Positions 10,001-19,540 of a stretch of DNA of 64,000 bases are shown here, in pieces. How positions within the stretch are numbered: the stretch's first letter is position 1; each line of letters begins with the position of its first letter. Source of the DNA: Paraconexibacter algicola. Lineage in GTDB: Bacteria > Actinomycetota > Thermoleophilia > Solirubrobacterales > Solirubrobacteraceae. Location of the stretch: the NCBI RefSeq assembly GCF_003044185.1, contig NZ_PYYB01000001.1, positions 620,001 to 684,000 on the forward strand. Reading direction: 5' to 3'. Made by a program: the position numbers and the translations under genes. The notes under the pieces were generated by a model. That model made no database searches. It had not been told where the DNA came from and saw only the letters and a program-made list of their open reading frames with translations.

Positions 10001-11350
10001 TCACAGGTCGAGCTCGATCCGGTAGACGCCGGGCGCGTCGGGATCGGGCGCGGGCGGCGTGCGCGCGATCCGGGCGTCGACCGCGACCTCGAGGCGCCGG
10101 CGGGCGGCGTGCGCGGCGAGCGCCCCGGTCCGCGGCACGTCGACCCGGACGCGCTCGTATCCGTCGACGTCGGGGACCGGCACGTCGGCGAGGACGCCGC
10201 CGTCGACCCCGAGCAGCCGCAGGCGCCGCCCCTCGCAGCGGCCGACCTCGGTGCAGAGCAGCTCGAAGCGCAGCGCCTCCGCGGTCACGACCGGGAAGGC
10301 CGGGACGCTGGCGCCGTCGCCGACGTCGCTGACGAGCAGGCGCTCGCAGCCGCGCGGGATCCGGGCGACCCGGTCGTCGGGGTCGACCACGTCGACGCCG
10401 GTCCCGCAGGTGGAGTCCGGATCGCGGAAGCTGACGCGGTCGTCGCCCGGCCCACCACTGACGCGGTCGCCCAGTACGACGTCGCCGCCGCCCCGGCCGC
10501 TGACGACGTCGTCGCCGTCGAAGCCGCGCAGGTCGTTGGGCCCGTCGTCGCCGAGCAGGACGTCGTCGCCGTCGCCGCCGAGCGCGTCCTCGATCCGGTG
10601 CAGGCGGTCCTCGGTCCCGCGGCGGCCGCCGCGTCCACGGGCGAGGTCGACGCGCACCGCGGTCGGGCGCCCCTCGTAGGTGATCGTGTCGCGGCCCCGG
10701 CCCCCGTCGAGGAGGTCGCGGTCGATGCGTCCGTCACCGCCGTCGCCGTCGAGCGTGTCGTCGCCGGTGTCGCCGCGCACGCGGTCGGCCCCGGCGTCGC
10801 CGGCGAGCGTGTCGTCCCCACCGCCACCGGCGAGGCGGTCGTCACCGGGACCGCCGCGCAGGGTGTCGGCCGCGCGGCCGCCGAGCAGCGTGTCGCGCCC
10901 CTCGTCGCCCTGGGCGACGAGCGGGGTCCGCGTGGCGGTGATCCGGTCCTCGCCCGTGCCGCCGCGGACCTCGATCGCCAGGCCGAAGCGACCGGGCGCG
11001 TCCAGCCGGTCGTCGCGGTCGCCGAGCCGCACGGCGATCCCGTCCAGCGGCAGCCCGGCCGTGCAGCGCACACGGGAGCGCGCGGTCCGCGCGCAGTCGC
11101 GACCGGCGGCGACGGGACGGCGAGAGCCGCGGTCCTCGACCGTCACGCTGCCGTCGGCGGCCTCGCGGACGACGACGCGGTTGGCCTCGCCGGGCGCCGC
11201 GGTCACCCGCAGGGTCGCGACGACCTCGTCCTCGCGGTCGCCTTCGACGGTGCGGACGTCGACGCGGACGGTCGTGGCCTGGGCCGCGGCGGGCGCGAGG
11301 AGGGCGAGCAGCACGGGCAGCAGCCAGCAGCGGGCACGGAGCGTGGTCAT
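10001..11350 (-). CDS. Exported RTX-like calcium-binding repeat protein
   Basis: A 449-residue secreted protein. The ATG at 11350 gives a clear signal peptide (hydrophobic core LLPVLLALLAPAA, likely cut after AQA). Residues about 110-290 hold a run of glycine/aspartate nonapeptides of the RTX type (GGPGDDRLAGG, GDTGDDTLDGDGGDG, GDGDDVLLGDDG), which form calcium-filled parallel beta rolls. The C-terminal 130 residues are beta-rich and contain cysteines. The family is often secreted by type I systems in Gram-negatives; here a Sec signal is used instead and no type I exporter is nearby. The role is unknown; surface structure or calcium binding is plausible. It is divergent from the TetR gene. 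Confidence 0.8.
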   Translation of the reverse strand: MTTLRARCWLLPVLLALLAPAAAQATTVRVDVRTVEGDREDEVVATLRVTAAPGEANRVVVREAADGSVTVEDRGSRRPVAAGRDCARTARSRVRCTAGLPLDGIAVRLGDRDDRLDAPGRFGLAIEVRGGTGEDRITATRTPLVAQGDEGRDTLLGGRAADTLRGGPGDDRLAGGGGDDTLAGDAGADRVRGDTGDDTLDGDGGDGRIDRDLLDGGRGRDTITYEGRPTAVRVDLARGRGGRRGTEDRLHRIEDALGGDGDDVLLGDDGPNDLRGFDGDDVVSGRGGGDVVLGDRVSGGPGDDRVSFRDPDSTCGTGVDVVDPDDRVARIPRGCERLLVSDVGDGASVPAFPVVTAEALRFELLCTEVGRCEGRRLRLLGVDGGVLADVPVPDVDGYERVRVDVPRTGALAAHAARRRLEVAVDARIARTPPAPDPDAPGVYRIELDL

Positions 11351-11433: not shown

Positions 11434-11441
11434 CGGGTATG
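11426..11441. promoter_or_regulatory. Candidate TetR operator, CATAC-N6-GTATG
   Basis: Perfect 5-base inverted arms CATAC (11426-11430) and GTATG (11437-11441) flank 6 bases and straddle the -10 box and the first base of the start codon. The position is ideal for autorepression by the TetR protein encoded immediately downstream. Confidence 0.45.
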
Positions 11442-12043
11442 TGAGCGCCCCGCCCGCCCCGAGCTCCCGCGCCGCGACGGCCGCCGCCACGCGCACGAAG
11501 CTCATCGACGCCGCGATCGAGCGGTTCGCCACCGACGGGCCCGACGCGAGCTTCGACCAGGTCGCCGCCGACGCCGGCGTCACCAAGGGCGCGCTCTACC
11601 ACCACTTCGCCTCCAAGGACGGGCTGATCGAGGCCGTCTACCGCGAAACAATCCGGCGCCACAGCGAGCAGGTCATCGCGCGCTCCAGCGACGGCGACGG
11701 CCGCACCCGCCTGCTCGGCCTCGTCGACGAGAGCGCCCGGCTCTACGGCTCCCGGACCCCGTTCTACTCGCTGCTGACGCGCCTGCACCTCGAGGCCGGC
11801 ACGTCGCGTCCCAACCTCGCCGCGATCGCGCGCCGCGTCCAGCAGCGCCAGCGCGAGTACATGATCGACTGCGTCCGCTCCGGCCAGGAGGACGGGTCGA
11901 TCGACCCGTCGCTGGACGCGGTCGCGGTCGGCCTCACCGTCAACGCCGCGCTGCAGGGCTTCCTCGTGCAGCAACTCGAGGACCAGGCCACCCAGCTCGA
12001 CTGGGTCACGCGGTTCCGCTCCCTCATGGAAGGCATGCTGTGA
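11441..12043 (+). CDS. TetR-family regulator of the acyl-CoA dehydrogenase operon
   Basis: A 200-residue repressor-type protein. The N-terminal helix-turn-helix (about 20-65) contains SFDQVAADAGVTKGALYHHF, a textbook TetR recognition helix; the rest is a variable helical ligand-binding domain. The GTG start lies directly behind a promoter with a palindrome over its -10. The stop overlaps the next start by 4 bases (GTGA), so it is the first gene of a coupled operon. Regulators in this position usually sense the acyl-CoA handled by the downstream enzymes; here that would be an inferred hydroxy- or branched acyl-CoA. Confidence 0.88.
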   Translation: MSAPPAPSSRAATAAATRTKLIDAAIERFATDGPDASFDQVAADAGVTKGALYHHFASKDGLIEAVYRETIRRHSEQVIARSSDGDGRTRLLGLVDESARLYGSRTPFYSLLTRLHLEAGTSRPNLAAIARRVQQRQREYMIDCVRSGQEDGSIDPSLDAVAVGLTVNAALQGFLVQQLEDQATQLDWVTRFRSLMEGML

Positions 12044-13263
12044 TCGACTTCACGATCCCCGACGACGTCCAGGAGATCCTCGCGCGCATCGAGCGCTACA
12101 TCGAGGAGGACGTGCTCCCCGCCGAGGCGGAGATCGCCGACCCCGACGACGTCCTCACGAGCTGGCACGTCGTCGAGCGCCTGCGCGACCGCGCACGCGA
12201 GCTCGGCATCTACACCCCGCACCTGCCCGTCGAGTGGGGCGGCCTCGGGCTCGGCGTCCTCGCGATGTCGCTCGTCTCGCAGGCCTGCGGCGTCTCCGGC
12301 CTCGCCTCGCTCGGCCTCAACGCCATGGCCCCCGACGAGGGCAACATGCACACGCTGCTGATCGCCGGCACCGACGAGCAGCTGGAGGAGTACCTGCGCC
12401 CGCTCGCCGAGGGCCGCACGCGCTCGTGCTTCGCGATGACCGAGCCCGACGTCGCCTCCTCCGACCCGACGAACCTCGAGACCACCGCCGTCCGCGACGG
12501 CGACGAGTGGGTCATCAACGGCCGCAAGTGGTGCATCACCGGCGCCGAGGGCGCCGCGTTCGCGATCGTCGTCGCGAAGACCGGCAGCTCCGAGCCCGCC
12601 ACGCACCGCGACTACTCGCTGATCCTCGTGCCGTGCGACACGCCCGGCTGGGCGATCGAGCGCCACCCCGAGTGGATGGGCTCCCACTCCCCCGGCGGCC
12701 ATCCGATCGTGACGCTCACCGACGTGCGCGTCCCCGCCGGCAACCTCCTCGGCGGCGAGGGCGAGGGCTTCGTCATCGCGCAGAAGCGCCTCGCCGGCGG
12801 CCGCCTCGCGCACGCGATGCGCTGGATCGGCGTCTCGCAGCGCGCGCTGGACATGACGAGCGAGCGGCTGCTGCAGCGCCGCTCCTTCGGCAAGGAGCTC
12901 GCGCGCCACCAGGGCCTGCAGTTCATGATCGCCGACTCCGCGATGGACCTCTACGCCTCCAAGCTCATGGTCCTGCACGCCGCCTGGAAGGTCGAGAACG
13001 GCCTCCCCTACCGGCAGGAGATCGCGATGACCAAGACGTTCGTCAGCGAGGCCTTCGGGCGGATCGTCGACCGCGCCGTGCAGATCCACGGGGCGGCGGG
13101 GATCGCGATGGACCTGCCCATCGCCCGCTGGTACCAGGACGCGCGCGCCGCGCGGATCTACGACGGCGCCAGCGAGGTCCACCGCATGACGATCGCCCGG
13201 GAGCTGCTGAAGCTCTCGATGCAGGGACAGTCCACCCGCCAGGCCACCGGAGACATCTTCTAA
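12040..13263 (+). CDS. Acyl-CoA dehydrogenase, ACAD10/11-like
   Basis: A 407-residue flavoenzyme with all three acyl-CoA dehydrogenase domains. Visible motifs are CFAMTEPDVASSDPTN (FAD/substrate loop), VINGRKWCITGA, the RRSFGKELARHQ helix and the C-terminal QIHGAAGIAMDLPIARWYQDARA / IYDGASEVHR segments. The sequence GSHSPGGHP and lack of an obvious canonical catalytic Glu in the usual place resemble ACAD10/ACAD11 relatives, but this is a by-eye judgement. It starts at GTG 12040, overlapping the TetR stop. The next gene, 3 bases downstream, is an APH-like kinase, the same partner fused to ACAD10/11 in animals. Confidence 0.88.
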   Translation: MIDFTIPDDVQEILARIERYIEEDVLPAEAEIADPDDVLTSWHVVERLRDRARELGIYTPHLPVEWGGLGLGVLAMSLVSQACGVSGLASLGLNAMAPDEGNMHTLLIAGTDEQLEEYLRPLAEGRTRSCFAMTEPDVASSDPTNLETTAVRDGDEWVINGRKWCITGAEGAAFAIVVAKTGSSEPATHRDYSLILVPCDTPGWAIERHPEWMGSHSPGGHPIVTLTDVRVPAGNLLGGEGEGFVIAQKRLAGGRLAHAMRWIGVSQRALDMTSERLLQRRSFGKELARHQGLQFMIADSAMDLYASKLMVLHAAWKVENGLPYRQEIAMTKTFVSEAFGRIVDRAVQIHGAAGIAMDLPIARWYQDARAARIYDGASEVHRMTIARELLKLSMQGQSTRQATGDIF

Positions 13264-13266
13264 GCC

Positions 13267-14364
13267 ATGCCGTCCATGGAACTCGCCCACGACGACGTCG
13301 TCGAGACACACGAGGAGGGCGCGGCGAACGACCGCGTGCCGCTGCTGGTGCTCTCGTCGCTGCGGACCTTCTTCGACGGCGCCGGCATCGGCACCGGTGA
13401 GCAGGAGATCGGGGTCACCCCCGTCGGCGACGGGCACTCCAACCACACGTTCATCCTCGACCGCGGCGCCGACTCCGTGATCCTGCGGCGCCCGCCGCGC
13501 GGCCCGCTGCCGCCGTCCGCGCACGACATGCTGCGCGAGGCGCGCGTCCTGCGCGCCGTCCAGACGACCCCGGTGAAGGCGCCCGCGGTGCTCGCCACGT
13601 GCGCCGACGAGGCGGTGATCGGCGCGCCGTTCTACGTCATGGAGAAGATGGACGGGCACGTCATCACCGACACGGTGCCCGACGTCCTCGACACGCCCGA
13701 GCAGCGGCGCGCCCTGTCCTTCGAGCTCGTCGACGCGCTCGTCGAGCTGCACGCCGTGGACTGGCGGGCCGCCGGTCTGGGCGAGGGGTTCGGCAAGCCC
13801 GCCGGCTACCTGGAGCGCCAGGTCAAGCGGTTCCTCGGTCTCTGGGAGCACAACCGGACCCGCGAGATCCCCGAGGTCGAGCGCGTCGGCGCCTGGCTGC
13901 GCGAGCACATGCCCGCCCAGACCGACTCGACGATCGTGCACGGCGACTTCCGCCTGGGCAACGTCATGTACGCGCCCGAGGCGCCCGCCCGGCTGGTCGC
14001 GATCTTCGACTGGGAGATGTCGACGATCGGCGACCCCCTCGCCGACCTCGGCTACCTGCAGATGATGTGGAGCGAGGCGACCGACCCCGACGGCGGGATG
14101 TTCGAGCTCAACCGCGTCACGCGCGCCGAGGGCTTCCCGACCCGCGCCGAGATGGTCGCCCGCTACGAGGAGCGCTCGGGCCGCTCGATGACCGACATCA
14201 CCTGGTACACGACGCTCGCCCTCTGGAAGGCGATCGTGTTCATGGAGGGCAACTACAAGCGCGCCACCAGCGGCGCGTCCGACGACCCGTTCCTCAAGAC
14301 GTTCGGCGACGGCGTGATCGAGCTCGCCCGCCGCGCCGAGGAGGTGTCCCGGGGTGGCGCGTAA
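13267..14364 (+). CDS. APH-family kinase, ACAD10/11 N-terminal type
   Basis: A 365-residue phosphotransferase of the aminoglycoside/choline kinase fold. The nucleotide lobe contains VTPVGDGHSNHTFIL and VILRRPP; the catalytic loop reads IVHGDFRLGNVMY and the metal-binding segment IFDWEMSTIGDPLADLGY. All residues expected for phosphoryl transfer are present. Proteins of this branch are annotated as aminoglycoside kinases by default, but in LvaA and ACAD10/11 systems they phosphorylate the 4-hydroxy group of acyl-CoAs. The operon with an acyl-CoA dehydrogenase and an HAD protein makes that the better reading; antibiotic resistance is unlikely. Confidence 0.85.
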   Translation: MPSMELAHDDVVETHEEGAANDRVPLLVLSSLRTFFDGAGIGTGEQEIGVTPVGDGHSNHTFILDRGADSVILRRPPRGPLPPSAHDMLREARVLRAVQTTPVKAPAVLATCADEAVIGAPFYVMEKMDGHVITDTVPDVLDTPEQRRALSFELVDALVELHAVDWRAAGLGEGFGKPAGYLERQVKRFLGLWEHNRTREIPEVERVGAWLREHMPAQTDSTIVHGDFRLGNVMYAPEAPARLVAIFDWEMSTIGDPLADLGYLQMMWSEATDPDGGMFELNRVTRAEGFPTRAEMVARYEERSGRSMTDITWYTTLALWKAIVFMEGNYKRATSGASDDPFLKTFGDGVIELARRAEEVSRGGA

Positions 14365-14974
14365 GGGCCTCATCATGGACTGGGGCGGCGTCATGACGAC
14401 GTCGCTGTTCGCCTCCTTCGCCGCGTTCGACCGGGCGAGCGGTCTGGCCGACGGCACGGTCAAGCAGGCGTTCCGCACCGACCCCGAGGCCCGCGCGGCG
14501 CTCGACGACCTGGAGTGCGGCCGGGCGACCGTCGCGCAGTTCGAGGAGCGCTTCGCGGCCGTCCTGGGCCTGGACTCCGGGGACGGCCTGGCGCTGCGGC
14601 TGTTCTCCGGCGTCGGCCCGGACGACGCGATGCTCGACGCGGTCGAGGCGTTCCGCGCCGCCGGCGTGCGGACGGGCCTGCTGTCGAACTCGTGGGCCGA
14701 CGAGTCCTACGACCGTGGGCGCTTCGCCACGCTGTTCGACGTGCTCGTCATCAGCGGCGAGGAAGGCATGCGCAAGCCCGACCCGCGGATCTACGAGCTG
14801 GCGGTCGAGCGGATGGGACTGGCCGCGCAGGAGCTCGTGTTCGTCGACGACATCGGGGGCAACCTGAAGGTGCCGCGGGCGATGGGCATCCACACGGTCC
14901 TGCACGTCGACGCCGCCACGACGCTCGCCGAGCTGCAGGACGTGCTCGGCGTGCAGCTGCCCGCCGCCGCGTAG
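14354..14974 (+). CDS. HAD-superfamily protein, ACAD10 HAD-like
   Basis: A 206-residue HAD-IA protein. Motif I is MDWGGVM, with the nucleophile Asp but Gly where the general acid/base Asp usually stands; motif II is LLSNSW; Lys in GMRKPDPRIYE is motif III; motif IV is FVDDIGGN. The DxGGV variant is common in YihX/ACAD10-type HADs, so phosphatase activity may be weak or altered. The GTG at 14354 overlaps the kinase gene by 11 bases. Together the three genes reproduce, as separate chains, the HAD-APH-ACAD architecture of mammalian ACAD10. It is the last gene of the operon and converges on the minus-strand cluster 7 bases later. Confidence 0.82.
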   Translation: MARKGLIMDWGGVMTTSLFASFAAFDRASGLADGTVKQAFRTDPEARAALDDLECGRATVAQFEERFAAVLGLDSGDGLALRLFSGVGPDDAMLDAVEAFRAAGVRTGLLSNSWADESYDRGRFATLFDVLVISGEEGMRKPDPRIYELAVERMGLAAQELVFVDDIGGNLKVPRAMGIHTVLHVDAATTLAELQDVLGVQLPAAA

Positions 14975-14981
14975 CGCGCGC

Positions 14982-16217
14982 TCAGCGCCGCGTCGCCCGG
15001 TCGGCGCGCACCGCGCCGACCAGGTCGCCCGGGAGCGTGCCGAACGCGGTGGCCGCCCACGGCGTCTCCTGCTCGAGGTACGCGCGACCGCGGTCCTCGA
15101 GCACGTCCGGGCGACGGCCGGCGGCGACGTCCTTCGCGCACGCGGAGCAGACCGGCATGCGCGGCGCGCCGCCCCAGCGGGCCTGGGTCGTGCTGCGCCC
15201 GTGCGTGGGGTTGAGGCCGCACGGGGCCGGCGCGGGGGTCGGCTCGGCACGCCCGGCGTCCAGCGCGGTCGCGGCGCCGAGCTGCGCCCGGGCGGCGTCC
15301 TCGAGCACCAGGGCGCCGACGAGGTCGACGTCACGGGCGTCCGGATCGCCGGCGATCGCGGCGGCGACGTCGCGGATCTCCAGGGCGCGCTGCCAGTGCT
15401 CGGCGGCCGCCCCGGACTCGGGGGTCGGGGTGCGGTCGAGCAGCCCGGCGAACGCGACGAGCTCGTCGTCGAGCGTGCGGCGCAGCTGCGCGTGCCGGGC
15501 GTTGCGCGCCGCGGCGAACACGTGCGCGGGCAGCACCGGCGCCCCGTCCGGGGCCGGGGTGGCGCGCCGTCGCGCGAGGAGCAGCGCGCCGACCCCACCC
15601 GCGAGCACGACGAGCGCGACGCCCAGCAGCACGAACGGGACGGTCCCGCCGCCGTCCCCGGTCTCGTCGCCCCGGGCCGGCGTCGTGCCGGAGTCCTCGG
15701 CCTCGGAGCTGAGCTTGTCGCGGGCGCGCTGGGCGCGCGCGAGGACGTCGGGGTCGTCGAGCGCGTCGAGGAACCGCTCGATCGTGATGGCGACCGGCTC
15801 GCGGTACTCGCCCTCGAGGCTCGCGACCGTCGAGGCCGCGTAGGTGCGCGCGTCCTCGACGTCGGCGGGCTCGACCGTGAGCGACGAGTTGTCGGCCGCG
15901 ACGAGGGTCGCGTCGGTGTCGAGCCGTCGGCGCAGGACCTCCAGGAGCTTGCGCGGCTCGCCGTCGACCGCGTCCCCGGGCACGAGCGGGATCACGACGA
16001 CGAGCACGGGCGGGCGCCGGCCGCGGAGCTTGCGCAGGATCGTGCGGCGCTCCGTCGCGTCGAGGGACGAGCGGACCGCGTCGTCGACGTACAGCGGCGC
16101 GTCACGCAGGGCGTTCGCGGCGGTGTCGACGTCCTGGGCCTGCGCCGGGGTGGCGGTCCCGAGCGCCGGGAGGACGAGCGCGAGGGCGGCGATCAGCGCG
16201 CCGAGGCGACGGCTCAC
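14982..16217 (-). CDS. Secreted membrane-anchored protein, paralogue A (TPM-like, Cys/His site)
   Basis: A 411-residue protein in four parts: signal peptide (GALIAALALVLPALG, cut near AQA), an extracytoplasmic TPM-like alpha/beta domain starting ALRDAPLYVDD (about 35-190), a transmembrane helix (VPFVLLGVALVVLAGGVGALLLA) and a cytoplasmic C-terminal region. The end carries CGLNPTHGR and VCSACAKD, a Cys-His-Cys-Cys set likely to bind zinc, then WAATAFGTL. The same ending recurs in paralogue C. The GTG start at 16217 overlaps paralogue B by 4 bases. No function is known to me; the family looks lineage-restricted. Confidence 0.65.
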   Translation of the reverse strand: MSRRLGALIAALALVLPALGTATPAQAQDVDTAANALRDAPLYVDDAVRSSLDATERRTILRKLRGRRPPVLVVVIPLVPGDAVDGEPRKLLEVLRRRLDTDATLVAADNSSLTVEPADVEDARTYAASTVASLEGEYREPVAITIERFLDALDDPDVLARAQRARDKLSSEAEDSGTTPARGDETGDGGGTVPFVLLGVALVVLAGGVGALLLARRRATPAPDGAPVLPAHVFAAARNARHAQLRRTLDDELVAFAGLLDRTPTPESGAAAEHWQRALEIRDVAAAIAGDPDARDVDLVGALVLEDAARAQLGAATALDAGRAEPTPAPAPCGLNPTHGRSTTQARWGGAPRMPVCSACAKDVAAGRRPDVLEDRGRAYLEQETPWAATAFGTLPGDLVGAVRADRATRR

Positions 16218-16924
16218 GACCGGCCCTTCCGCCCGCGGCCCGCACCGGCGGCCGGACGCCGCACCGGCCTGGGACGCCGCACCACCCACCAGGCGGCGCC
16301 GAGCAGCGCGCCGCTTCCCCAGAGGATCACCATGACCTCCCATCCTGCCCCATCGCCGTCCTCCTCCTCGTCGTCGGGCAGCAGCGAGAAGACCGGGTCG
16401 ACCGGGCCGTCCGGTCGCGACAGGCCGAACGTCTCCCCGCGCGGCGCGGCCGCGACCTGCTGGATCACCCGGTCCAGCCGGACGCGGAGCTGGTCGAGGC
16501 TCTCGCGCGACGACGGGCCGTAGCGCAGGTCGAAGTCCAGCTCGACGTCGCGGTCGACCCGCGAGGGCAGGACGTCCACGACGCCGCGCTGGCTGACGAG
16601 GACCAGCACGGTCGGCTCCGGCCCCAGCCGGTCGGCGAGCCCGTAGAGGACGCGTTCCGCGTCGCCGCCGGACTCGTCCTCGTTGAGCAGCGGCAGCACC
16701 GCGACGAGCAGCCGGAACGGCGGATCGAGCTGCGCGATCCGCTCCCGGGTGGCGCGGGCGAGCGCGGGCGGGAACGCGTCCTGCATGTCGATCGACACGA
16801 AGACCGGATCGGTGCGCAGCGCCTGCGCGACCGTGTCCAGGCGCCCGGAGGCGCTCGCGGGCGCGGGCCCCGTCCCGAGGAGCACGGTCGCGGCGGCGAG
16901 CAGCAGCAGGACGGCGCGGCGCAT
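16214..16924 (-). CDS. Secreted membrane-anchored protein, paralogue B (short form)
   Basis: A 236-residue relative of its two neighbours. It has a signal peptide (AVLLLLAAATVLLGTG), then ALRTDPVFVS and an extracytoplasmic domain to about residue 190, an acidic stretch DDEEEDGDGAG, one transmembrane helix (VMVILWGSGALLGAAWWVV) and a short basic tail. It lacks the C-terminal Cys/His domain present in paralogues A and C, so it may be a partner subunit. The ATG at 16924 shares one base with the stop of paralogue C (TGATG), and its own stop overlaps paralogue A by 4 bases. Confidence 0.62.
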   Translation of the reverse strand: MRRAVLLLLAAATVLLGTGPAPASASGRLDTVAQALRTDPVFVSIDMQDAFPPALARATRERIAQLDPPFRLLVAVLPLLNEDESGGDAERVLYGLADRLGPEPTVLVLVSQRGVVDVLPSRVDRDVELDFDLRYGPSSRESLDQLRVRLDRVIQQVAAAPRGETFGLSRPDGPVDPVFSLLPDDEEEDGDGAGWEVMVILWGSGALLGAAWWVVRRPRPVRRPAAGAGRGRKGRS

Positions 16925-18087
16925 CAGCGACCGTCCTGCGCGAGCGCGCGGCCGACGTCGGGATCCAGCGCGCCGAACCCGGTCCGCGCCCAGACGCTGC
17001 GCCGCTCCCAGTAGGGGCGGCCGTCGTGCAGCAGCGCCGACGGGGCACGGCGACCCGCGATGTCCCGGGCGCACGCGCGGCAGGCCGGGACGGCGACGGT
17101 CTCGCCGTCCTGCGACCAGCGGGACTCCGCCTTCGCCCGGCCGTGCCGGGGGTCGTAGAAGCAGCGCGGGTCGGCGTGCCCGCGGCGGAGCACGTCGAGC
17201 CCCATGCCCGCGAGCACGAGCGCCCCGAGGTCGTCGAGCTCGCCGTCGCGGTCGCGGTCCAGGGCGACGCTCGCGGCCGCCGCGAGCTCGAACGCCCGCT
17301 CGGGCGGACTCGTCGCGCGGTCCAGCGCGGTGGCGAGACGCTGCACCGCGAGCTCCGCCTCCGCGCGCGTCCCGGGATCGAGCGCCCGGCCGCGCGCGGT
17401 CGCCCGGGGCGGCGCCCCGGGTCCGTGGCGCAGCAGCGTGCGGCGCGTCACGACCGCGGCCACCGGCAGCCCGAGGATGCCGCCGAGGATCCACCAGACG
17501 CCGCTGCCGCCGCCCTCGTCCTCCTCCGCGCGGTCGTCCTCGAACGGCGGACCACCCTCGTTCGGGGGGATCTGGCGGCGCTCCGCGCGCGGCAGCCGCG
17601 GCTCGCCGCGCATCAGCCCGAGCACGTAGAGGACCTCGCGGGCGGGCCGGATATCCTCGGGCAGGTCGAAGAAGGCGGCGAGCGTGGCGTCGCGGCCGTC
17701 CAGCCGCGGCCGGACCCCGAACGCGTCCGCCTCCGGCGAGGTGCCCTTGCCGACGACGTACAGGCCGTCGCGGCCGAGCGCGTCGCGCAGCTGGGCGGCC
17801 CAGCCGTCGGAGGGCTGCTGGATCGCGGTCGGGCCCGGCGGGGTGATCCCGGGCGCGAGCACGACGTAGGTCGGGAACGGCATCCGCGCGACCGCCCGCC
17901 GCAGGGCGGCGACCTCCTGCGGGCTGACGATCCGCGAGAACGAGTCGCTGACGAACACCGGGTCGCGGCGCAGCTCGCGCGCGACGAGGTCGACCCGGTC
18001 CGGGTCGGCCGCCAGGGCGGTCGCGGACGGGCCGACGGCGAGCAGCGCCGTCAGGACGGCGAGGACGAGCTGAACCGGCCGGCTCAC
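16924..18087 (-). CDS. Secreted membrane-anchored protein, paralogue C (Cys/His site)
   Basis: A 387-residue protein with the same plan as paralogue A: signal peptide (LVLAVLTALLAVGPSA), extracytoplasmic domain beginning LVARELRRDPVFVS, an acidic linker (EDDRAEEDEGGGSG), a transmembrane helix (GVWWILGGILGLPVAAVV) and a cytoplasmic domain. The C-terminus has CFYDPRHGR and ACRACARD, then PYWERRSVWARTGFGAL, aligning with paralogue A. The metal site is inferred from the conserved Cys/His spacing. It starts at GTG 18087, overlapping the YdeI-like gene by 4 bases. Upstream neighbours include a CtaG protein, so a role at the membrane in metal or cytochrome biology is possible but unproven. Confidence 0.65.
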   Translation of the reverse strand: MSRPVQLVLAVLTALLAVGPSATALAADPDRVDLVARELRRDPVFVSDSFSRIVSPQEVAALRRAVARMPFPTYVVLAPGITPPGPTAIQQPSDGWAAQLRDALGRDGLYVVGKGTSPEADAFGVRPRLDGRDATLAAFFDLPEDIRPAREVLYVLGLMRGEPRLPRAERRQIPPNEGGPPFEDDRAEEDEGGGSGVWWILGGILGLPVAAVVTRRTLLRHGPGAPPRATARGRALDPGTRAEAELAVQRLATALDRATSPPERAFELAAAASVALDRDRDGELDDLGALVLAGMGLDVLRRGHADPRCFYDPRHGRAKAESRWSQDGETVAVPACRACARDIAGRRAPSALLHDGRPYWERRSVWARTGFGALDPDVGRALAQDGR

Positions 18088-18647
18088 CGCGCGAGCCGCT
18101 CCCCGGCCGCGCAGGCGGCGCGCAGCTGCTCGAGGCGGCGCAGCCGGGTGTCCGGGCGCTTGGCGTTGCCGATCCAGAAGACCATCTGCCGTCGATACCC
18201 CGCCGGGCAGGCATCCCAAAACTCCGCGGCCCGCGGATCCTCCCGCAGGCGCGCCTCGTCGGCCTCCGGCAGCCGGTCGGGGGTCGCGGCGATCGAGTAC
18301 CCGGGGTCGTCGGGGTCGCGGGCGGCGAACGCGGCGCGGCCCGCGTCGGTCATCCGTCCCTGCGCCTCGAGCTCGGCGACGAGCCGGACGTTCACCGCGC
18401 TCCACCGCGAGCCCGGCCGGCGCGGCGTGAAGCGGACGGTGTGGCGCTCGTCGTCGATGCGGTTCAGCCGCCCGTCGATCCAGCCGAAGCACAGCGCCTC
18501 CCGGACGCTCTGCTCCCAGCTGAGCACCTGGCGGCCCGTGTGCGCCTTCCAGTAGCCGACCTGCACCTCGGTCGCGGTCGCGTGGTGCGCCGCGAGCCAC
18601 GTGCGCCACGCGGCGGGACCGTCGAAGAAGACCGGCTCGCCGCTCAC
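18084..18647 (-). CDS. YdeI/OmpD-associated family protein
   Basis: A 187-residue cytoplasmic protein. The N-terminal FFDGPAAWRTWLAAHH, then VGYWKAHTGR, REALCFGWIDGRLNRID and RFTPRRPGSRWSAVN are hallmarks of the YdeI (bacteriocin-protection) family, and the C-terminal YRRQMVFWIGNAKRPDTRLRRLEQL matches the family end. The biochemical role of the family is poorly known; some members are linked to antimicrobial-peptide tolerance. The GTG at 18647 overlaps the CtaG gene by 4 bases, so it is tightly coupled in the operon. Confidence 0.82.
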   Translation of the reverse strand: MSGEPVFFDGPAAWRTWLAAHHATATEVQVGYWKAHTGRQVLSWEQSVREALCFGWIDGRLNRIDDERHTVRFTPRRPGSRWSAVNVRLVAELEAQGRMTDAGRAAFAARDPDDPGYSIAATPDRLPEADEARLREDPRAAEFWDACPAGYRRQMVFWIGNAKRPDTRLRRLEQLRAACAAGERLAR

Positions 18648-19540
18648 GCACCGGCCGCCCGGTCGTCGATCCGCGCCCGCAGCTCCTCCCCGCGGCCGGC
18701 CGCGACGGCGCGGCGCGCCCGGGCGGGGTCGAGCGTCACGCCGCGGGCGGCGGCGTGCTCGAGCAGCAGCTGCTGCTCCTCGCTCTGGCGGGCGGTGCGC
18801 AGGAACAGGACGGCGAACAGGCAGATCGTCAGGATCGACTCCTCGACCATCATGACGGTCCCGGCCGTCACCTGGTCGGCCTCCCGGGAGAGGTCGAAGA
18901 CGCCGGGCGTGTAGCCGTCGTAGAACGCGCCGCCGCCGAACAGGAAGACGTTCGCGAGGACGGCGCCGACCATCCGCACCATCAGGACGTAGCCGAGCGC
19001 CCACGCGTTCGTGAACCAGGTCGGGCGCGGCAGCGGACCGAACAGCGGCATCCACACCGCGGCCCCGAGCGAGACGAACGTCAGGTGCTGGACGGCGTGC
19101 ACGACCTCGCTGTCGAGCGCCGCCTCGTGCACGACCGGGACGTGCCACAGCGCGAGGTTCGCCGCCCACAGCACGACCGCGACGACGGGATGCGTGACGA
19201 TCCGCAGGCGGTCGAACGCCCGGATCCGCAGGACGGGCGCCAGCAGCGGCCCGGTGAGGCCGAGGACGAGCAGCAGCGCCCCGAGGTCGGCCATCAGGAG
19301 GTGCTCGGCCATGTGCGCCCAGAACACCTCGTCGGCCATGTGGCCGAGCGGCGAGGTGAGCGCGACGGCGATGAGGCCGAGGCCGCCGAGGAAGCACCCC
19401 TGCCGCCAGCCGGGGACCGCGCGCGGCGTGCCCGCCAGGGTGGCGCAGCGGCGCAGGTACAGGACCGCGACGACGAGCTGCGGGAGCAGCTGCAGCGGGG
19501 CGAGCTGGACCCCTCCGACGTGGGCGAGGACGGCGGTCAC
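18644..19540 (-). CDS. CtaG-family (caa3 oxidase assembly) membrane protein
   Basis: A 298-residue protein with about seven membrane helices. Histidines in AEHLLMADLGALLLVLG and HAVQHLTFVSLGA match the Caa3_CtaG family, which is required for assembly or copper loading of cytochrome c oxidase in Bacillus. The last 55 residues are a charged cytoplasmic tail. The GTG start at 19540 has TAGGCT ending 9 bases upstream; that box overlaps the TAG stop of the preceding gene. No oxidase subunit is in this window. Confidence 0.85.
   Translation of the reverse strand: MTAVLAHVGGVQLAPLQLLPQLVVAVLYLRRCATLAGTPRAVPGWRQGCFLGGLGLIAVALTSPLGHMADEVFWAHMAEHLLMADLGALLLVLGLTGPLLAPVLRIRAFDRLRIVTHPVVAVVLWAANLALWHVPVVHEAALDSEVVHAVQHLTFVSLGAAVWMPLFGPLPRPTWFTNAWALGYVLMVRMVGAVLANVFLFGGGAFYDGYTPGVFDLSREADQVTAGTVMMVEESILTICLFAVLFLRTARQSEEQQLLLEHAAARGVTLDPARARRAVAAGRGEELRARIDDRAAGA

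Follow-up and report, generated by a model that had tools for sequence, protein, structure and literature searches.

Phosphorylation of a hydroxyacyl-CoA by a kinase, followed by elimination of the phosphate by an acyl-CoA dehydrogenase (ACAD), is established chemistry for LvaA/LvaC and for ACAD10 and ACAD11 (PMC11342911, PMC12440821). In the levulinate operon of Pseudomonas putida the kinase LvaA and the dehydrogenase LvaC are products of separate genes, and a 4-hydroxyacyl-CoA is phosphorylated before the phosphate is removed (PMC11342911); the operon has no HAD gene (PMC12440821). ACAD11 fuses the kinase and dehydrogenase parts and lacks a HAD part. ACAD10 carries all three in one chain: a HAD domain with one Asp where a DxD motif is usual, a kinase of the same family, and an ACAD in which the catalytic Asp and the phosphate pocket are likewise the same (PMC11342911, PMC12440821).

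Here we analyze a 64,000-nucleotide stretch of the Paraconexibacter algicola genome (the window; part of contig C1 of this 4.7-Mb genome), in which 11441-14974 (+) is occupied by four closely spaced genes for a TetR-family regulator, an ACAD, a kinase of APH type and a HAD protein. The first-pass annotation had proposed this gene set, and all four genes were found in place and on the expected strand, with families confirmed by Pfam. It had also described the locus as a split version of ACAD10. The gene content agrees with this description, as the same three parts are present. Of the two outcomes named there as refuting it, neither was observed: the ACAD groups with ACAD10/11-type enzymes and has no catalytic Glu, and the kinase is closer to ACAD11-type kinases than to antibiotic kinases. 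They are separate genes in the order ACAD-APH-HAD behind TetR, and the ACAD forms a deep sister branch (39% identity to mouse ACAD11) rather than an ACAD10 or ACAD11 ortholog. From residues, phylogeny and gene linkage, we consider it likely, with a probability of roughly two in three, that the four genes make up a catabolic module, ACAD10-like but split, that feeds hydroxyacyl-CoAs into beta-oxidation. The kinase and ACAD chemistry proposed for it is already known from LvaA/LvaC and ACAD10/11.

Residues, phylogeny and gene linkage of the dehydrogenase

The ACAD gene (12040-13263, +) encodes a protein with Pfam ACAD domains. In the alignment, its residues R250, H258, R261 and D375 correspond to R626, H634, R637 and D753 of mouse ACAD11. 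PMC12440821 reports that the first three of these hold the 4-phosphate, that D753 is the catalytic base, and that ACAD11 is blocked when these residues are lost, substitutions in the region abolishing its reaction. The catalytic position of the window ACAD is Asp, not Glu, and is invariant in alignment A4. Essentially every ACAD10/11-type family member among 143 aligned ACADs carries the four-residue set (RHRD), the exceptions being four members with Asn at the second Arg and one sequence that is cut short. The genome of P. algicola holds four ACADs with all four residues. None of the 22 other ACADs from this genome included in the alignment has the set, and the catalytic position is occupied by Glu or other residues in the genome's other alignable ACADs.

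We calculated a maximum-likelihood tree of 118 sequences, with 15 ACADs from the same genome and 1ukw as the outgroup. It was of the quick type, as was the kinase tree below, with SH-aLRT support only, and it contained neither ACAD10 nor LvaC sequences. All four-residue carriers and mouse ACAD11 form one clade (102 rows, SH-aLRT 100), apart from the genome's other ACADs. The window-type ACADs constitute their own deep branch of 12 rows within this clade (support 100), and mouse ACAD11 nests elsewhere, among pseudomonad and other sequences. Because of this separate placement, the window ACAD is a relative of ACAD11 and not its ortholog, and it is probably not an ortholog of ACAD10 or LvaC either. 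No close LvaC candidate was found among 12 genomes searched.

Comparison with solved structures points the same way. In a sequence search, 4hr3 and human and mouse ACAD11 scored best, above the medium- and short-chain enzymes (MCAD, SCAD). The predicted model (pLDDT 86.5), for which one row from a plasmid record was left out of the input alignment, has 4hr3 and ACAD11 as its best Foldseek matches, again above MCAD and SCAD. Judged from its sequence, the window ACAD is of the ACAD10/11 kind and not an ordinary beta-oxidation enzyme.

The dehydrogenase is also linked to a kinase gene across related genomes. We sampled 61 relatives and counted only those genomes in which the contigs permit a judgement. 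A window-type ACAD is present in 19 of the 61 (own genome included; 73-87% identity) and, in 16 of 17 judgeable genomes, has an APH kinase as its immediate neighbor. Plasmids from Rhodococcus, Arthrobacter and Massilia carry kinase-ACAD pairs as well. At one locus (L205:7349-8435, genome G036), the match to the kinase that follows the ACAD downstream is spread over two overlapping frames, resembling a frameshift.

The operon might apply the same kinase and phosphate-elimination chemistry to substrates other than linear 4-hydroxy acids, with the hydroxyl at a different position or on branched or cyclic natural-product acids. The window-type ACADs form their own deep clade, and their pocket motif (RLAGGRLAHAMR / DGASEVH) differs from RLGPGRIHHCMR / DGPDEVH. 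The presence of four four-residue ACADs in one genome also suggests different substrates. The four phosphate-handling residues are nevertheless the same, and 4-hydroxyacyl-CoAs are the substrates of the known members, so that we regard this alternative as unlikely, though the best of those considered. A reading of the ACAD as an ordinary dehydrogenase of beta-oxidation, with the kinase and HAD genes as unrelated chance neighbors, is far less probable. RHRD-type ACADs without a neighboring kinase do exist, but the Asp in place of Glu, the R/H/R pocket, the separation from ordinary ACADs in the tree and the adjacency to a kinase in 16 of 17 genomes all argue against it.

Several observations weigh against the assignment of the operon as a split ACAD10-like module. 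The window ACAD shares no more than 39% identity with mouse ACAD11, from which it is set apart on a deep branch of its own. One relative, G012, is the sole exception to the ACAD-kinase adjacency and has the ACAD without such a kinase. In P. algicola itself, no kinase gene was found within roughly 8 kb of two RHRD-type ACADs (G000:C1:318187-319365 and G000:C5:152882-154042), and about two dozen further four-residue ACADs (L055-L083), from Acidimicrobiia, Nonomuraea and other groups, lack an APH kinase in a neighborhood of up to 6 kb. Since such carriers exist, the RHRD signature marks a class of chemistry and not necessarily a kinase partner. Finally, no acyl-CoA synthetase (CoA ligase) or reductase gene was identified beside the operon, a difference from the lva operon, to which the locus is likened by description. 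The contig of one locus in this range, L082 (CAMBEL010000005.1), is labelled Bifidobacterium breve; its ACAD groups with those of Acidimicrobiia and the label is probably wrong.

The kinase and its coupling to HAD genes

The third gene (13267-14364, +; PF01636, E=8e-47) encodes an APH-fold kinase of the ACAD11-kinase type, with PDB matches to 9o56, 3dxp and 8v3u. The nearest solved chains are 9o56 (E=2.5e-72), 3dxp (9e-52) and mouse ACAD11 (4.9e-42). The identity to the ACAD11 kinase part is 30%. The catalytic residues D227, N232 and R184 correspond to D220, N225 and R176 of ACAD11 and are all kept. As equivalents are also present in the outgroup kinase 9fsg, these residues indicate kinase competence and not specificity. 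For R86 of ACAD11, no unambiguous counterpart could be mapped.

In the kinase tree, which held no choline kinase, the window protein groups with other ACAD-linked kinases. Nine APH-family matches are found in the genome, and the two strongest are those lying with RHRD-type ACADs and HADs. The idea of an antibiotic or choline kinase, with a role in resistance or on another small molecule, draws on the APH fold and a weak APH(3') profile match (40 bits, cut-off 205), but is very hard to reconcile with ACAD11-type proteins as the closest solved relatives, with matches to macrolide and viomycin kinases at E about 0.007 only, and with the conserved operon with ACAD and HAD.

The coupling of the kinase gene to a HAD gene is broader than the full operon. 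Of the 31 judgeable genomes, 29 have a HAD of at least 44% identity within 200 bp of a kinase (exceptions G023 and G011). In a phylum-wide sample of 149 genomes, a HAD match was found in 24 genomes outside the order, and a kinase adjoins it in 11 of these 24. No kinase lies near the more distant HADs (L191-L196). Many relatives carry the APH-HAD pair without an ACAD, and in some the ACAD-APH pair is followed by a short-chain dehydrogenase in place of the HAD. The full ACAD/APH/HAD triad occurs in the window's genus, in G014 and in G035. The operon gene order exceeds chance, since related genomes repeat TetR-ACAD-APH-HAD or ACAD-APH and a second set is present in the same genome. The broad kinase-HAD coupling mirrors the N-terminal half of ACAD10 and is the most useful new point of this analysis. 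We found no description of it in a literature search or in the consulted passages of PMC11342911 and PMC12440821.

In other families of the order (L167-L182, L187, L197), the region of the APH-HAD pair without ACAD often also holds genes for a MutM-like glycosylase and an aldehyde dehydrogenase.

The HAD protein

The last gene (14354-14974, +) encodes a HAD-IA protein of the subclass resembling the N-terminal domain of soluble epoxide hydrolase (sEH). It scores 110.5 bits with TIGR02247, the profile of sEH-N-like HADs, under the curated cut-off of 125.4. The predicted model (pLDDT 95.6) has the sEH phosphatase domain as its best fold match (TM 0.84), with E. coli YihX at about 0.76. Of the HAD catalytic positions, the nucleophile D9, S111-N112 of motif II, K141 of motif III and the acidic pair D165-D166 of motif IV are kept. 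Motif I reads D9-W-G11-G-V, with Gly at the position of the second Asp of DxD; the sEH domain has DLDGV here and differs in its genomic partners.

The motif DWGGV without a second Asp had been pointed out in the first-pass annotation and is present as described, but it is not peculiar to the operon. DxGG (DxAG in one copy) is found in nearly all examined members of the subclass, including copies without a kinase beside them. We considered the motif as the mark of a pseudo-enzyme specific to the window operon, and this was ruled out by the unlinked relatives that share it. E. coli YihX, whose motif I probably lacks the second Asp as well, is an active phosphatase, so the missing residue should not be taken as a sign of inactivity. 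The window HAD is presumably about equally close to the sEH phosphatase domain and to the HAD of ACAD10; this comparison is a lead only, made with a human ACAD10 sequence in which Asp stands at position 48, matching the published position. The activity of YihX is documented (PMC4251788, PMC8938923). The HAD domain of ACAD10 also has no full DxD; it has negligible phosphatase activity and restrains the kinase (PMC11342911).

We tentatively propose, as an idea that is somewhat less probable than its negation, that the hydroxyacyl-CoA kinase has in the free-standing HAD a partner of its own, which serves as a phosphatase or as a brake, and that the two were coupled in bacteria before their fusion in ACAD10.

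Operon layout and proposed pathway

The genes had been described as overlapping, which holds for two of the three junctions. The GTG start of the ACAD gene overlaps the TetR stop codon and the GTG start of the HAD gene lies inside the kinase gene, with an overlap of 11 bp. The ACAD and kinase genes do not overlap and are 3 bp apart. The overlaps and the 3-bp spacing suggest that the four genes are read as a single transcript. The TetR gene (11441-12043, +) has a GTG start and its product matches PF00440 (TetR_N, E=7.8e-15). TetR homologs are found directly upstream of the window-type ACAD at five other loci (L165, L166, L183, L215 and L217), and TetR probably regulates the operon. Upstream of its gene, inverted repeats were considered as operator candidates; they are short and rich in G and C, and we do not propose an operator.

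The second APH/HAD/ACAD set of the genome (C1:2224686-2230045; L020:687-6046) has a divergent arrangement. The HAD gene lies beside the ACAD gene, and the APH gene is 2.4 kb away across two + strand open reading frames (ORFs), a short-chain dehydrogenase/reductase (SDR) and a medium-chain dehydrogenase. Its neighbors, named from their sequences, are SDRs, followed by an enoyl-CoA hydratase-like ORF and a CaiB-type CoA-transferase-like ORF.

Around the window operon, the flanking genes on both sides are on the opposite strand, as read from the sequence. Upstream and divergent from the operon lies an ORF with repeated GGxGxD-type, calcium-binding-like repeats (10001-11340, -). Downstream and convergent are tandem, mutually similar ORFs with signal-like and membrane-like segments (14982-18651, -).

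Gene order, family placement, active-site residues and linkage are observed directly; the substrate, reaction, HAD role and TetR ligand of the proposed split ACAD10-like module are inferred. The residues, tree and linkage are the grounds on which the chemistry of the known systems is carried over to it. The kinase would use ATP to phosphorylate a hydroxyacyl-CoA at its hydroxyl group, yielding a phosphoacyl-CoA; the most likely substrate is a 4-hydroxyacyl-CoA. In the ACAD, Asp375 and FAD, together with the Arg250/His258/Arg261 pocket, would then remove the phosphate, with FAD passing transiently through a redox cycle. The predicted product, a 2-enoyl-CoA, could enter ordinary beta-oxidation, and the ACAD step would involve no net oxidation. 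The HAD may act on or with the kinase, either by hydrolyzing stray phospho-acids or phosphoacyl-CoA, or by restraining the kinase like the HAD domain of ACAD10. TetR would control the set, probably through an acyl-CoA ligand.

The operon extends the phosphate-elimination branch of the acyl-CoA dehydrogenases to a further deep clade, and the four-residue signature lets annotators stop naming such genes ordinary beta-oxidation enzymes. The HAD domain of human ACAD10 restrains the ACAD10 kinase (PMC11342911), and in many actinobacteria the matching HAD is encoded by a separate gene beside the kinase gene. Because this HAD is free-standing, its effect can be tested simply by adding or omitting it. 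If the HAD is indeed a partner of the kinase, the window operon could serve as a model for the HAD domain of human ACAD10.

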